From positions 1 through 53,138 of the forward strand of contig JAHJJU010000056.1 in the NCBI GenBank assembly GCA_018822805.1: a DNA stretch of 53,138 nt. The letters run 5' to 3'. The notes below the pieces were generated by a model. It saw nothing but the letters and a program-made list of their open reading frames with translations, had not been told where the DNA came from and did no database searches. Origin of the DNA: a bacterium (GTDB taxonomy: Bacteria > Campylobacterota > Campylobacteria > Campylobacterales > Sulfurovaceae). Of the stretch, positions 17,117 through 50,789 are shown in pieces. Each line of letters starts with the position of its first letter. Position 1 is the first letter of the stretch. The position numbers and the translations under genes were made by a program.

Positions 17117-17137
17117 GTAGGGTCGATTTTATCGACC
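17117..17137 (+). repeat. REP-like unit A (GTAG + hairpin)
   Basis: GTAG is followed by GGTCGAT-TTT-ATCGACC, a perfect 7-bp stem. It lies between nnrD and purN and is one of the dispersed GTAG-headed palindromes in this window. Its core sequence differs from the others. Confidence 0.6.
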
Positions 17138-21783: not shown

Positions 21784-22974
21784 ATGAAACTACTCCACAC
21801 ATCTGACTGGCACCTCGGTCAAAACTTTATGGGCAAAAGCCGAGAAGAGGAGCATCAGGCTTTTCTCTCTTGGCTTGTCGAAATGATAGAAACCAAAAAG
21901 ATAGAGGTACTTTTAGTATCGGGCGATATTTTTGATACCGGCACACCCCCAAACTATGCACTGGAACTCTACTATAACTTTTTAAAAGAACTATCAACGC
22001 TACAGCGTTTAAAAACGACGATTATAACAGCCGGAAACCATGATTCCATCTCAACACTTAAAGCACCCCAACAACTTCTTGACGTACTCAATGTAAAAAT
22101 CATAACAACGGGTGATGAAGATGAAACCATCATCATACCTATCAAAAAGGACGATAGAACCCAAGCCATTGTTTGTGCTGTTCCATTTTTAAGAGACAGT
22201 ATCATCAGAGAAGCAATCTGTGGTCAAACCATTAATGAAAAAGAGAAAGTAGCCAACCGTGGCATAAAAGCCTACTACGAAAATGCCTATAAAAAAGCAT
22301 GTGAACAAAAAGAGAATGAGAACACACCCATTATCGCTATGGGACATCTTACTACGGTAGGAAGTAGAACGAGCCAGAGTGAACGAGATATTTACATAGG
22401 TGGTACATTGGATATCGGTGGAGATTATTTAGCCGGTATGTTTGACTATGTAGCTTTAGGTCACTTACACATAAATCAAACCGTTGGCTCAAATCATGTA
22501 CGCTATTCAGGCTCTCCCATACCTCTAAGTTTTTCTGAGTCTAAAAACACTCAAAAGGTAAATATTGTCTCAATAGAAGATTCAACTGTAGAAGTAGAAG
22601 AGGTAGAAGTACCACTAAAAAGAAAACTTCATGTTATCAAAGGTGATTGTGAATCCGTAAAAAAAGAGCTAAAAAAAATAGAAGATAAGCAGACATGGAT
22701 CGCCGTACTGATTGACGATGATAATGCGATGTATGCCAATCAAGAGGTACGCAACGTGGCTGGGGAACTTGGGTTGACACTGCTTGCTGTTAAAATAGAG
22801 AAGAGCGAAAAAGAGCTGGAAGCCAAAGCGATGAAAGCGATAAGTTTGGATGAGTTGTCCGTTGAGCAGGTTTTTGAAAAGAGATTATCCGATGAGCAGA
22901 TTGAAGATAAAGCGTTAGAGGCACAACTGCTCAAGAGCTTTAAAGAGGTGTATGAAAAGGTGCAGAACGCATGA
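21784..22974 (+). CDS. sbcD: SbcD nuclease subunit
   Basis: The 396-residue calcineurin-like phosphoesterase subunit of the SbcCD (Mre11-Rad50) complex, which opens hairpins and trims protein-blocked DNA ends. Metal-binding motifs are in order: HTSDWHLGQ (residues 5-13), VSGDIFDTG, TAGNHDS, AMGHLTT and ALGHLHINQ. The C-terminal capping and SbcC-binding region is acidic. The start follows a weak GGAAAAG. The stop overlaps the sbcC start by four bases (ATGA), giving tight coupling. Confidence 0.96.
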   Translation: MKLLHTSDWHLGQNFMGKSREEEHQAFLSWLVEMIETKKIEVLLVSGDIFDTGTPPNYALELYYNFLKELSTLQRLKTTIITAGNHDSISTLKAPQQLLDVLNVKIITTGDEDETIIIPIKKDDRTQAIVCAVPFLRDSIIREAICGQTINEKEKVANRGIKAYYENAYKKACEQKENENTPIIAMGHLTTVGSRTSQSERDIYIGGTLDIGGDYLAGMFDYVALGHLHINQTVGSNHVRYSGSPIPLSFSESKNTQKVNIVSIEDSTVEVEEVEVPLKRKLHVIKGDCESVKKELKKIEDKQTWIAVLIDDDNAMYANQEVRNVAGELGLTLLAVKIEKSEKELEAKAMKAISLDELSVEQVFEKRLSDEQIEDKALEAQLLKSFKEVYEKVQNA

Positions 22975-31618: not shown

Positions 31619-31680
31619 GGTGCAATGAATTGCACCCTACAATTTTTTTATTAAATTGTAGGGTGTCATTTTAATGCACC
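31619..31680. repeat. REP-like pair C (two units, heads facing inward)
   Basis: The left unit (31619-31640) reads, on the minus strand, GTAG then GGTGCAAT-TC-ATTGCACC. The right unit (31658-31680) is GTAG then GGTGTCATT-TT-AATGCACC with a one-base bulge. The AT-rich spacer between them completes a third hairpin (CCTACAATTT/AAATTGTAGG). The pair fills the gap between the HflK-like gene and hisIE. Confidence 0.65.
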
Positions 31681-37547: not shown

Positions 37548-37991
37548 ATGGACAAACCAAAAGTAGCCCTCTCAGCTTGCCTTATGGGCTGTGCTTGTCG
37601 TTATGATGCAAGGGATAATTTGAATGAATCACTATTAAAGCAATTGGATTCATTTGAGATTGTCCCTTTTTGCCCCGAGGATGACTGCTTTGGTTCTCCT
37701 CGTCCGACCATGGATTTAATTGATAATGGAGAAGGTATAAATGCTATCTCTAACGAGAATGGGCAAAACCTCTCTGTACCTATTCTTGACTATGCTCACA
37801 ATTTTTTTGAACAACATCCCGATATAAAACTGTTTATTGGTAAAGATAGAAGCCCAAGTTGTGCCGTACAAAGTGGAAAAGTTTACAGTAATCAAAAAGA
37901 GCTTCTTCATACACAAGGAACAGGCTTAATGACTAAAATAGCTTTAGATTTAGGCATCAAATGTTGGGATAGCGAAGCGTATACAACGTAG
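37548..37991 (+). CDS. DUF523 family protein
   Basis: A 147-residue protein with an N-terminal LSACLMGCACRYDARDN Cys cluster and later FCPEDDCFGSPRPTMDL and GKDRSPSCAVQSGKVY, matching DUF523 (conserved Cys residues, possible metal or Fe-S site; function unknown). It is coupled to the aldehyde dehydrogenase by one-base spacing. Its TAG stop (37989-37991) is contributed by the GTAG head of repeat D, so its C-terminus may have been reset by insertion of the element. Confidence 0.85.
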   Translation: MDKPKVALSACLMGCACRYDARDNLNESLLKQLDSFEIVPFCPEDDCFGSPRPTMDLIDNGEGINAISNENGQNLSVPILDYAHNFFEQHPDIKLFIGKDRSPSCAVQSGKVYSNQKELLHTQGTGLMTKIALDLGIKCWDSEAYTT

Positions 37992-38100
37992 GGACAACGC
38001 CCCCGTGCTTGTCCGATACCCAATATGCAAAACAAATTCAAATTGTCTGTGTCCGAAAATCAAAATGAACATCGGACAACCACAGGGGGATTGTCCCTAC
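37988..38100. repeat. REP-like inverted pair D (113 bp, 30-bp arms)
   Basis: The left arm 37988-38017 and the right arm 38071-38100 match at 26 of 30 positions when one is inverted. Each arm starts GTAG GGACAA and contains TTGTCC, so each is a hairpin unit of the same type as H. The central 53 bases are AT-rich and non-coding. Both outer GTAG heads contribute the stop codon of the flanking convergent gene (37989-37991 plus; 38097-38099 minus). Confidence 0.75.
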
Positions 38101-38826: not shown

Positions 38827-38870
38827 GTAGGGGTAGGGGTGGAGCCATGTCTCCACCCTTGTTTCTACCC
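38827..38870 (+). repeat. REP-like unit F (GTAG + nested hairpin)
   Basis: GTAG (38827-38830), then GGGTAG, an inner stem GGGTGGAG/CTCCACCC, a TTGTTT bulge and CTACCC, eight bases after the bcp stop. It fills the convergent gap with the pbp1A gene and could stop transcripts from both sides. Confidence 0.55.
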
Positions 38871-40890: not shown

Positions 40891-41970
40891 TTAATAGACT
40901 TGAAGAATCATGGATTCTAGTGATTTTTTAGAGCTTCCAATACGGGGTATAATACGTAATATAGGTTCTTTTACTGTAGGTTTTCGAATGGCACCAACCA
41001 AATATCCACTCTGTATAAGTTCTTTCTGTAAGCCCAGAGCCATGGCGTTATCAAGTACGGGTAGGGCTAATATAAGTGATTGAAAATTAATGCCAATTAT
41101 CTTTTTGACAATGGCTTGACGTGCTTGAATTTTTGCATAATACTTTTCACTTTTTTGAGCAACATGCTCTATGTTAACCAAGGCTAAGGCTGTATCAATT
41201 ACCGATGGAGCCGTTGAATAAATAATTGGTTTCCCACGGTTTTCTAAAAAACTAATAATCTCTGAATTGGCTAAAATATACGCCCCATAACTTCCATAGG
41301 CTTTACCAAGGGTTCCCATTTTAATGTGATTGTCTTTGGGTTCGATGTCATAATATTCAAAAATACCTAAAAGATTTTGACCCAGTACACCCGAGCTATG
41401 TGCTTCATCTACTATGAGCAGTGCATCATGGCTATCTGCAAGCTCAAATATGGCTCTATCACAAAGATTTCCACTCATCGAGTAGATACCTTCAACAGCA
41501 ATAATCTTACGTCCTGTTGTGTGTATTTTGAGTTTCTCTTCTAAGTCATGGGGATCATTGTGTTTAAATGTTACCACTCTATCACCCAAAAGCCCCGTTG
41601 CCATCATACCTGAAGCGTGATAATCTTCATCAATAAAGAGCCTGTCTTTTTTACGAACCAAAGCTTCTATTAGTGCCATATTTGCCAAAAATCCAGAGCC
41701 CACAATCATTCCCTCTTCGAAACCATTGAGCTTTGCTAACGTGGTCTCAAAACGTTCATGAATCTCATGATACCCATTGACCAACATACTCGCTTTAGGG
41801 GCATGGGTATCGTATTCATTAACAAGTTTCAGAGCTTTTTTGAGTTGCTTTTTATTATTGGCAAGACCCAAGTAGTCATTAGAAGCAAAGTCAATTAAGT
41901 TGTGATCCCATATTTTTCGTTGGCGAAAGCGTCCTGCTTTTTTTAGGGCGTTGAGTTCGTTTTCATACAT
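40891..41970 (-). CDS. bioF: 8-amino-7-oxononanoate synthase-like PLP enzyme
   Basis: A 359-residue alpha-oxoamine synthase of fold type I. The start (FRQRKIWDHNLIDFASNDYLGLANN), GSGFLANMALIEAL, VDEAHSSGVLGQNLLG and MGTLGKAYGSYGAYILAN (with the cofactor Lys) match the BioF/KBL group. The size favours BioF (pimeloyl-ACP plus alanine to KAPA, biotin synthesis). Other alpha-oxoamine synthases cannot be excluded since no other bio gene is nearby. It directly follows maf (adjacent bases). Confidence 0.83.
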   Translation of the reverse strand: MYENELNALKKAGRFRQRKIWDHNLIDFASNDYLGLANNKKQLKKALKLVNEYDTHAPKASMLVNGYHEIHERFETTLAKLNGFEEGMIVGSGFLANMALIEALVRKKDRLFIDEDYHASGMMATGLLGDRVVTFKHNDPHDLEEKLKIHTTGRKIIAVEGIYSMSGNLCDRAIFELADSHDALLIVDEAHSSGVLGQNLLGIFEYYDIEPKDNHIKMGTLGKAYGSYGAYILANSEIISFLENRGKPIIYSTAPSVIDTALALVNIEHVAQKSEKYYAKIQARQAIVKKIIGINFQSLILALPVLDNAMALGLQKELIQSGYLVGAIRKPTVKEPILRIIPRIGSSKKSLESMILQVY

Positions 41971-42522
41971 TTAGTTCACCAACCACGGCAACAATTTCTC
42001 AATACTGAGTCCCATGGCCGTACTCTCATAGCCATGTACGGATTTTATATATTTTTTACAAAATCCTTCAACCATACAGCCACCGGCTTTTCCTTGCCAT
42101 AAGCCATTTTCTAAATAGGTCTCTAAGTCTTCTTTTTCAAACTCTAAAAAGTTGTAGTAGGTGGCTGAAACATCAGACATATAAAAGGTTTTGGTTTTGT
42201 AGTGCATGGCAGATATAATTGCCATCGATGAACCACTTTGTAGTTCTAAAATACGCTTGGCATCGTCAATATTTTGGGGTTTTCGTAACAGTTCACCGTC
42301 GGCTGAAAGTATGACCGAATCGGCTGTGAGCAGGGGAGCCTCTAATCCAAACTCTTTAATGGCAGCTTCGAGTTTTCCTTTGCTTGCTATGTAGGCGAAA
42401 TCTTTGGCTGTTTTGGTTTCGATTTGCTCTTCATCATATTCGGGAGCTTTTTGAATGAAATCTATATTAAATCTGTTGAGGAGTAAGGCTCGTGATTGGG
42501 AGTTTGAGGCGAGGTGTATCAT
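41971..42522 (-). CDS. maf: Maf-family nucleotide pyrophosphatase
   Basis: A 183-residue protein with the Maf start LASNSQSRALLLNRFNIDF, the EYDEEQ segment, LTADSVILSADGELLRKPQ and a YEST-like ending. Maf proteins hydrolyse non-canonical or standard nucleoside triphosphates and were first tied to septum inhibition. The position between alaS and pbp1A is conserved in relatives. A 132-bp inverted repeat pair (E) separates it from alaS. Confidence 0.92.
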   Translation of the reverse strand: MIHLASNSQSRALLLNRFNIDFIQKAPEYDEEQIETKTAKDFAYIASKGKLEAAIKEFGLEAPLLTADSVILSADGELLRKPQNIDDAKRILELQSGSSMAIISAMHYKTKTFYMSDVSATYYNFLEFEKEDLETYLENGLWQGKAGGCMVEGFCKKYIKSVHGYESTAMGLSIEKLLPWLVN

Positions 42523-42536
42523 AATGTTTATCCATT

Positions 42537-42668
42537 GTAGGTCGGGTTGCCCTCATCCCGACACGTATTTAAATAGTTGAGATGCTTTTTATTTTATTCA
42601 AATTCATATAAATAGTTTGAATTTTGTTTTATGCAGATTTATGTCGGGATGAGGGCACCCCGACCTAC
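42537..42668. repeat. REP-like inverted pair E (132 bp, 27-bp arms)
   Basis: Arms 42537-42563 and 42642-42668 match at 26 of 27 positions when inverted. Each begins GTAG GTCGGG and carries CCCGAC, so each can fold alone. The 78-base centre is AT-rich and holds a further small palindrome (ATTCAAA/TTTGAAT). The right head lies three bases after the alaS stop on the same strand. Confidence 0.78.
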
Positions 42669-42671
42669 GCA

Positions 42672-45233
42672 TTAAAGATTCTCTTGCAAATAAGCCAATG
42701 CTTTCTCTTTAGCTTCAGCTATTTTAGAAGCATCTTTTCCACCAGCTTGGGCAAAGTCCGGGCGACCTCCACCACCACCACCAAGAATCGGAGCTATGGC
42801 TTTTATCCAGTTTCCAGCTTTGATATTGGTTTCTTTTGAACCACAAGCGATCATGACTTTGTCTCCTTTTTTCTGGAACAACATAATGGCAAGGTTAGGG
42901 TATTTATTTTTTGCTTCATCAATCAGCTCTTTAATGTCACCGACTTCTACAACATCTACAATAATGTTTTTACCGTTAATCTCATTACTACTTAGCTCTT
43001 TTTTTATTGAAGAGAGAGCCGTTTTTAGTTCCCCTTTGAGGGTTTTAATTTGTTCTTTAAGGTTGTTGATTCCAGCCAGTGCATTTTGGTTTTTCAGTTC
43101 GGTTTTAATTTCATTTAGTTCATTACGTACATTGTTGACTGTTTCGATTGCAGCATTTCCACAAATCGCTTCGATTCTTCTTACCCCTGCTGATACTCCA
43201 GACTCTTTGGTAATCATAAAGAGACCAATTTCTGAAGCATTGCTTACATGGGTTCCACCACAGAGCTCTATGGAGTCTTGTGCAAAAGAGACCACGCGTA
43301 CTTCGTCACCGTATTTTTCACCAAAAAGTGCCATAGCACCTGAGTTTTTTGCTTCATCTACCGACATTACTTCTGTTTTAGCTGTAATGTTACGGCTGAT
43401 TTTATCGTTAACCCACGCTTCTACTTGAACGATCTCTTCAGAACTCATTGCTTGAGGATGAGAGAAGTCAAAACGTAATCGTTTGTCATCATTAAGTGAA
43501 CCTGCTTGGGCGATGTGGTTTCCTAATATGGCTCGTAGTCCGGCGTGGAGTAGGTGGGTTGCTGAGTGGTGTTTTTCTATTTCGGCACGTGAGTTGTCAA
43601 CCATGGCTTCAACTTGGTCACATGCTTTTAGGCTACCTTCTACTTCAGAGAGGTTCATCTCTAAAAATTTTTGTGTGTCCAAAATATTAATTATTCGTTT
43701 TTCATTATTCGTTATTAATTGACCTCTGTCTCCTGTTTGTCCACCCGATTTAGCATAGAAAGGGGTATTGCTAAGGTAAACCCAACCTTTACCGTTAATC
43801 TCTTCGACACGTTGAAAGTTCTCATCTAAAAGAGCTAAAACGGTTGCCGTGCTAGCAGTTTTACTGTACCCTACAAACTCATTGAGTCCAAAGGACTCTT
43901 TTAACGCTTTAAAATCACCGGTTGTGGCAGCATCACCTGTTCCTTTCCAGCCTGCTTTTGATTGTGCTTTTTGGGCATCCATTTTTCGGTCAAAGGCTTC
44001 AATATCAAGGGCGATGTTTTTTTCTCGTAACATATCTTCGGTTAAGTCAAGAGGGAAACCGTAGGTGTCATAAAGTTTAAAGGCTACTTCACCGTTAAAT
44101 ATATCTTTGGTGTTCTCCAGTTCCTCATTAAAGAGTTTAATTCCGGCTTCAATGGTATCAAAGAATCGCTCTTCTTCCATTTTCATGGCTGTTTGAATCG
44201 CTTCAGCTTTGCTGTTAAGGTACTCATACTGTTCACCCATCACCTCAACCAAGGTATCAACCAGTTTGTACATAAATGGTTCTCTTAGTCCCAATAGGTA
44301 TCCATGACGAATGGCACGACGCATGATTCTTCGTAGAACATACCCACGCCCCTCTTTGTCAAAGTTGACCCCTTGAGCCAAAAGGAATGAACATGAACGT
44401 AAATGGTCAGCAATAACACGGTAACTTGCAGAGTTATCAGCACGGTAATCATATTTGCTTCCAATCAATTCACCAATTTTATCTAGGAATGGCATGAAAA
44501 GGCTAGAGTGGTAGTTGTTTAAAACGCCCTCTTTAATGGCAACCACTCTTTCAAGTCCCATACCTGTGTCGATACTTGGTTTCGGTAGAGGGGTGAGTGT
44601 GCCTGTCTCATCACGGTAGTATTGCATAAAGACCAAGTTCCAAATTTCTAAGAAACGGTCACCTTCACCACCCATTTTGTCCTCTTCAGAGTTAAAATGC
44701 TCTGCACCTTGATCATAAAAGATTTCACTACATGGTCCACATGGCCCTGTGTCACCCATTTGCCAGAAGTTATCAGCATCACCAAAACGGATAATTCTAT
44801 CGGCTGCTATGTGTTTTTTCCATAGCTCTTCAGCTTCATCATCACTCTCATGTACGGTGACCCATAGTTTCTCAATTGGTAAGTTTAAGTATTCTTCAGA
44901 AGTAATAAACTCCCAAGCATAAGCTATGGCTTCCTCTTTAAAGTAGTCAGCAAAAGAGAAGTTCCCCAACATCTCAAAGAGGGTATGGTGTCGTGCTGTA
45001 TAGCCCACATTGTCAAGGTCATTGTGTTTCCCCCCGGCTCTTAAACAGGTTTGGCTTGATGTGGCACGAGGTGTGGCAGGTATAGGTGCTTCTCCTGTAA
45101 ATATATTTTTAAACTGAACCATTCCGGCATTGGTAAACATTAATGTTGCGTCATCCGGAACAAGAGGAGAGCTCTCAATAAGTTCATGTCCTTTGCTCTG
45201 AAAATAGTTTAGAAACTCTTGTCTGATATCCAT
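42672..45233 (-). CDS. alaS: Alanyl-tRNA synthetase
   Basis: An 853-residue class-II synthetase. The N-terminal catalytic domain has [16 protein letters not shown] and [18 protein letters not shown]. The editing domain has the metal ligands [13 protein letters not shown] (about residue 555) and CGGTH (about 655). The C-terminal C-Ala domain follows a coiled coil and ends with the Gly-rich [17 protein letters not shown]. The length matches bacterial enzymes. The start [11 protein letters not shown] is the family start. Confidence 0.97.
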
Positions 45234-46182: not shown

Positions 46183-46207
46183 GTAGGGACAAGGCAATGC
46201 CTTGTCC
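46183..46207 (+). repeat. REP-like unit H (GTAG + hairpin)
   Basis: GTAG then GGACAAGGCA-A-TGCCTTGTCC, a perfect 10-bp stem in the gap between glnA and the YafK-like gene. The GGACAA/TTGTCC ends are shared with both arms of pair D. It may double as a terminator for glnA, whose stop is seven bases away. Confidence 0.65.
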
Positions 46208-50763: not shown

Positions 50764-50789
50764 GTAGGGGTAGACCGATGTGTCTACCC
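50764..50789 (+). repeat. REP-like unit G (GTAG + hairpin)
   Basis: GTAG then GGGTAGAC, a six-base loop and GTCTACCC, between acpP and fabF. Its GGGTAG/CTACCC ends resemble the outer stem of unit F. Confidence 0.6.

Follow-up and report, generated by a model that had tools for sequence, protein, structure and literature searches.

The inverted pair of repeats that parts alaS from maf in the window (the whole 53,138-nt stretch analysed here, which is contig C48; the draft genome, G000, spans 2.79 Mb over 121 contigs) is best explained, at a probability of about 0.87 for the joint account, as a REPIN of the GTAG superfamily whose enzyme is likely a RAYT transposase encoded on contig C25. The REPIN stands between genes that overlap or abut in some relatives and likely affects their expression. 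Within this account the anatomy of the element, its family of copies, the position of the RAYT between REPINs of the same kind and the joint divergence of RAYTs and REPs are observed directly.

The two arms (42537-42563 and 42642-42668) are each 27 nt long, have 78 nt between them and are complementary at 26 of 27 positions (96%), exactly as the original prediction had described, and the whole element takes up 132 of the 149 nt of the alaS-maf gap. On both strands the unit starts with an unpaired GTAG head followed by the palindrome GTCGGG...CCCGAC; each arm is thus a REP of the GTAG type, and together they make a head-out doublet, a REPIN of 132 bp at 42537-42668. The plus-strand REP (42537-42562) is the exact family consensus GTAGGTCGGGTTGCCCTCATCCCGAC with 0 mismatches, and its minus-strand partner (42643-42668) carries 1 mismatch, a T to G change within the hairpin. 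They enclose an A+T-rich spacer of 80 nt (42563-42642), to which the closest copy in the same genome is that of the C42 REPIN, with 57 of 80 aligned positions in common. Both neighboring genes are on the minus strand: the stop codon of the upstream gene alaS (42672-45233) ends, at 42672, 3 nt from the REPIN, and the downstream gene maf (41971-42522) starts, at 42522, 14 nt past it. The 14-nt leader of maf (42523-42536, minus strand), CTACAATGGA(T/C)AAACA(T/C)T, is also found in the relative G031, there beside a REP of another family. The predicted ability of the arms to fold singly and of the pair to fold as a whole is borne out by folding energies, with a single arm reaching -7.1 kcal/mol as DNA (z = -4.50) and the gap folding as RNA into one long hairpin of -58.8 kcal/mol (z = -9.57), each being matched by 0 of 200 shuffled sequences. 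The gene order alaS-maf-pbp, which the original prediction had taken to be otherwise kept in the phylum, holds in part: alaS and maf are adjacent here, but maf is separated from the gene for the penicillin-binding protein by that for a PLP enzyme (Aminotran_1_2, 40891-41970). Even within the genus the order is not uniform, because many relatives have a gene without a Pfam match, gene X, between alaS and maf, and elsewhere another gene precedes maf.

Searching with GTAGGTCGGGTTGCCCTCATCCCGAC at up to 3 mismatches recovers 18 REPs in the genome of the window (10 forward, 8 reverse), and the arms of the alaS-maf element recur at about ten further places in that genome, in keeping with the small mobile-type repeat that had been proposed. 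Of 60 genomes searched, 20 contain the family, and these all belong to one genus; the reversed pattern, used as a control, gave 0 matches in each of the 60. Examination of 12 places in the genome of the window revealed eight doublets (C48, two on C25, C42, C101, C2, C76 and C21) and four singles (C25, C64, C86 and C87). As expected of a REP, the 18 units are repeated and mostly lie between genes: 11 of the 12 places are intergenic or at a gene end, three of these overlapping the gene end by 4 to 20 nt, and the sole exception is a partial copy within an open reading frame on C86. Over its whole length the element in the window is closest to the copy on C42 (78%). The single on C64 (L147:1333-1362) is a 30-nt unit, GTAGGTCGGGTTGCCCTCATCCCGACCTAC, with GTAG at the ends of both strands, and resembles a collapsed REPIN. 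Of 73 REPs in the fetched loci, 65 have a purine (A or G) immediately outside the GTAG head (the base that follows CTAC), possibly reflecting a preference at insertion.

The inverted REPs behave as a single unit, as seen both from the whole-length paralogue on C42 and from the concordance of arms across 30 REPINs, where arms within one element are more alike than those of different elements, with 28 loop mismatches where shuffling gave a mean of 66. The near identity of the arms had been read as a sign of recent arrival or of active homogenization. The first of these does not follow, since the C101 REPIN, which is common to this genome and that of G010, keeps arms agreeing at 51 of 52 positions despite a diverged spacer (73/97) and diverged flanks (405/501 and 375/522). 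The second remains plausible, and these comparisons are consistent with upkeep or homogenization of the arms in some form.

Other REP-like sequences occur in the window. A second REPIN-like pair, of another family (GTAGGGACAA...), lies at 37988-38100 with 4 mismatches between its 22-nt ends, and single GTAG hairpins belonging to further REP-like sequences are found at 17117-17137, 31619-31640, 38833-38858, 46183-46207 and 50764-50789. Counting these pairs and singles, REPs are more closely packed in the window than in the control stretches.

The original prediction had called the pair MITE-like. A MITE of the DDE-transposon type, with terminal inverted repeats and a target duplication, would share with the alaS-maf element its short length, its lack of coding capacity, its inverted ends and its several copies, but the features that define such an element in the usual sense point elsewhere, and we regard this origin as very improbable. 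The eight doublets of this genome display no target-site duplication, any abutting direct repeat being 0-1 nt long, each arm forms a hairpin of its own, preceded by an unpaired GTAG, and the same units are found on both sides of a RAYT gene. All this fits a REPIN with a RAYT of the Y1/HUH type.

Seven matches to Y1_Tnp above cut-off were found in the genome. One of these, the C25 RAYT (22069-22572, minus strand), lies between REPINs of the alaS-maf family at 21909-22055 and 22596-22742, at 13 and 23 nt from the open reading frame. It scores 147.7 bits against the NCBIfam model for REP-associated tyrosine transposases (NF047646, cut-off 80) and aligns with chain 4er8, the TnpA-REP of E. coli, at E = 1e-20. 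Across all 16 aligned RAYTs, two of them from this genome, the pair of HUH histidines and the tyrosine corresponding in the alignment to E. coli Y115 are invariant; Y115F is the catalytic mutant employed in PMC8266576, according to its available part. The C25 locus thus has the composition of a REPtron, a gene for a RAYT with HUH and tyrosine residues and the same REPs on both sides, and the family REP, which begins GTAGGTCGGG..., is the proposed cognate of this enzyme. The C25 RAYT would act as a single-strand HUH/Tyr transposase; such enzymes elsewhere recognize a folded REP with a 5' GTAG, and this one may have moved or copied the element between alaS and maf. A second RAYT gene, with no GTAG hairpin detected within 450 nt, lies some 0.9 kb from the partial REP on C86 (L020:2423-2448), which is set in a 300-aa open reading frame.

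The association of RAYTs with GTAG hairpins extends well beyond this genome. We compared 82 loci, made up of 80 kept from the 161 confirmed in a scan of named genomes and the two of the present genome; the kept loci are mostly labelled Sulfurovum, Campylobacteraceae or Epsilonproteobacteria, with a few from Marinicella and Melainabacteria/Gastranaerophilales. A GTAG hairpin lies within 450 nt of the RAYT in 75 of the 82 loci, as against 12, 8, 3 and 6 of 82 for four decoy heads. One RAYT frame, at L097 in G002, is in pieces, yet adjoins REPINs of one family. RAYT identity correlates with REP stem identity (r = 0.26, a value reached in 0 of 2000 permutations; 69 of the 82 loci could be used). 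Over eight stem bases the REPs of the 15 RAYT pairs above 80% identity agree at a mean of 0.97 and those of the 35 pairs at 70-80% at 0.87, falling to 0.66 at 60-70% and 0.51 at 40-60%; the relationship is not monotonic, the value below 40% RAYT identity being 0.56. RAYTs and their REPs, as judged from these sequence comparisons, diverge jointly. In an alignment of 18 RAYT-side REPs of 26 nt, picked by eye, changes affect both partners in 7 of 9 stem pairs, and pairing holds in 94.4% of cells, a rate that is partly built in because the REP detector demands a stem; a shifted structure over the same alignment gave no signal. In four genomes (G012, G020, G022 and G024) REPs of the alaS-maf family occur without a match in the RAYT search, and G003, rich in such REPs, yields no more than distant RAYT matches plus a fragment of 26 residues (77%) where a contig ends. 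Gene loss or the draft state of the assemblies could account for these REPs without a RAYT.

The gap before maf varies between relatives, as the comparison of sister genomes reveals. Including that of the window, 29 of 34 genomes of the genus contain maf. In some the gene follows alaS or gene X directly, with a 4-nt overlap in G020, G016 and G018, a 1-nt overlap in G027, and a gap of 0 nt in G006, G009, G013, G015 and G017. In others the gap holds a REP of another family: doublets of GGTGTTTTC in G007, G019, G023 and G025, a GGTGTAG REP in G033 (doublet) and G021 (one arm), and single REPs of GGTGTGAC in G012 and GGTTTGG in G008. In G031, whose contig breaks off short of the next gene, maf is preceded by a GATTCCGTC REP with an imperfect stem, which recurs in the G031 genome, and by the same 14-nt leader as in the window but for two transitions. 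Exactly 9 nt separate the REP from the start of maf in G012, G019, G023, G007, G025, G033 and G021, whose REPs represent three families, as against 14 nt in G000 and G031. A tree of the maf proteins is weak, 4 of its 21 inner branches being well supported.

The element thus occupies a place where some relatives without a REP have overlapping or abutting genes, and an effect on expression would be expected. In its presence maf would lose stop/start coupling to the preceding gene and would depend on its own ribosome-binding site, while the stable hairpin 3 nt past the alaS stop may protect the end of the mRNA or lower translation, by analogy with the REPs of E. coli. Attenuation of the downstream operon, raised in the original prediction, is a further possibility. 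Transcription attenuation by BIMEs is reportedly the subject of one paper, to go by its title in the references of PMC3733652. The available part of PMC12306157 describes reduced translation where E. coli REPs lie less than 16 nt from a stop codon.

A rival reading makes the hairpin a conserved cis-regulatory structure of the alaS-maf operon, an attenuator or a maf leader, rather than a mobile repeat. The gap RNA does fold very stably, and a GTAG hairpin lies within 120 nt upstream of maf in 8 of 25 relatives, in addition to the imperfect stem of G031; among control gene starts (window included), 5 of 401 have one within 40 nt. Against this, the family of the hairpin varies between species, the same arms stand at about ten other places in the genome, three other REPIN sites have a like pattern, and the gapless arrangements of G020, G016, G018, G027, G006, G009, G013, G015 and G017 leave no room for such a structure. 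A scan of 41900-42800 gave no terminator-like site (a stem followed by a T run) overlapping 42537-42668, a promoter scan gave no promoter-like site over the same interval, and an Rfam search to E = 1 returned 12 matches, all below the gathering score, with the hits to small-RNA and microRNA models set aside for that reason. A dedicated regulatory hairpin is accordingly given only a small chance, and we retain the REPIN as the identity of the element.

The recurrence of REPs before maf is part of a broader pattern. Four REPINs of this genome (maf, C101, C2 and C42) were compared with the orthologous gaps of those relatives whose locus was available. The maf count covers loci with a readable maf start, with L032 (the genome of the window), L047 (contig edge) and L054 and L058 (other genera) left out beforehand; at the other sites 19 of 19 (C101), 10 of 11 (C2) and 11 of 11 (C42) fetched loci were used, these being only the top-scoring loci among up to 33 relatives. 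A GTAG hairpin is found in the orthologous gap in 8 of 25 relatives at maf, 6 of 19 at C101, 2 of 10 at C2 and 5 of 11 at C42, or 21 of 65 in total, with G031 counted as unoccupied because of its imperfect stem. Decoy heads occur in 0, 1, 2 and 2 of the 65 gaps, and the hairpin in 0 of 134 other gaps of the same loci. In twenty 18-20 kb stretches from the genus, three of them from the genome of the window, 5 of 199 gaps of 20-500 nt hold a GTAG hairpin, and the difference from 21 of 65 has a Fisher p of 2.5e-10, a value that is too small as it takes related genomes as independent. The genome of the window is itself denser, with such a hairpin in 10 of 69 gaps (the window and three stretches). 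In 19 of the 21 occupied gaps the REP belongs to another family, the alaS-maf family being found in G010 and G029 only, in both cases at C101.

At two of the four sites, maf and C42, the edges agree to the base across families. Seven REP-bearing species end the C42 gene at one and the same codon: GTAG provides a TAG stop in G000 (GTCGGG family), G019 (GTTCGAT), G022 and G003 (GGTGCGAT) and G012 (GGTGGGTGCG), and the head reads GTAA in G023 (GTTCGAT) and ATAG in G007 (GGTGCGTT). The G011 gene reads into its REP; among relatives without a REP, G009 has TAA at the same codon and G032, G033 and G021 stop one codon later. Constant GTAG edges with differing bodies, where they are seen, suggest docks of REP-family turnover. 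In its full form, such a proposal would have REP sites as long-lived docks in which the GTAG, sometimes serving as the stop codon of the host gene, stays fixed while the body of the REP is rewritten or exchanged as RAYT specificity shifts, the alaS-maf REPIN being the present occupant. We put this forward tentatively, at somewhat less than an even chance, as base-exact edges are found at only two of four sites and the G009 stop codon is in place without a REP.

About as likely is the possibility that few intergenic spots tolerate REPs and that these are hit repeatedly, with no exchange in place. REPs are known to lie near gene 3' ends (the available part of PMC3733652), the single REP of relatives at C2 has no edge in common with the REPIN there, and at C101 the GGTGTAG doublets of G032 and G033 have edges a few nt away. 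The G009 gene also means that the C42 stop position need not derive from a REP. Repeated hits sit less easily with base-exact edges shared by different families, both at maf (9 nt in seven species with REPs of three families) and at C42 (seven REP-bearing species). The same holds for the maf REPIN spacers, which are more alike among themselves than others (mean 0.73 vs 0.51, p = 0.0006, a mean equalled by about 3 of 5000 random sets), a comparison confounded by element length and family and in which single other spacers attain 0.77. REPINs of hybrid make-up, whose two arms come from different families, were found at G032:C24 (L279), G033:C2 (L273), G007:C27 (L268) and G021:C22 (L274).

The alaS-maf locus is in itself ordinary, a mobile-type repeat that parts genes joined or overlapping in some relatives, and it is the turnover of REP families at fixed sites that is worth following. 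A genus with many RAYT-linked REP families, differing between species at common sites, would allow replacement in place by the current RAYT to be tested directly, together with the way in which a transposase and its dispersed targets shift jointly in specificity. Our literature search, mostly outside subscription journals, did not find class turnover at ordinary REP sites, apart from a remark in the available part of PMC3733652 that two Xanthomonas recB genes carry different REPs at about the same site. Hybrid REP dimers are known from S. maltophilia (same source), and REPINs are said, in the available part of PMC8049555, to last millions of years.

Much of what is described here has counterparts in known systems: GTAG REPs in epsilon-proteobacteria, their dimers, TAG stops and differing classes beside orthologous RAYTs are already known. 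The available part of PMC3733652 describes 24 families of GTAG REPs, with GTAG repeats in epsilon-proteobacteria and in a Sulfurovum strain, and our REP is likened to these at the level of the superfamily, sharing the GTAG head, the head-out dimers, the location near gene 3' ends and the TAG stop supplied by the REP. The C25 RAYT resembles E. coli TnpA-REP (PDB 4er8), with the HUH and tyrosine positions kept, while the REPs of the two organisms differ in stem and loop sequence. The REPINs and RAYTs of P. fluorescens SBW25, as portrayed in the available part of PMC3116915, likewise have inverted REPs around a spacer, intergenic dispersal and a RAYT beside REPINs of the same kind, but SBW25 has more than a thousand REPs where the present genome has 18, and the spacers here are A+T-rich, of 28-97 nt, in a host of the Campylobacterota type. 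A further counterpart is provided by the RAYT/REP orthogroups of pseudomonads and stenotrophomonads, in which orthologous RAYTs of related strains have different REP classes; the available part of PMC3686654 concerns RAYT-side REPs and copy numbers, whereas in the present genus the class differs also at ordinary sites away from the RAYT.
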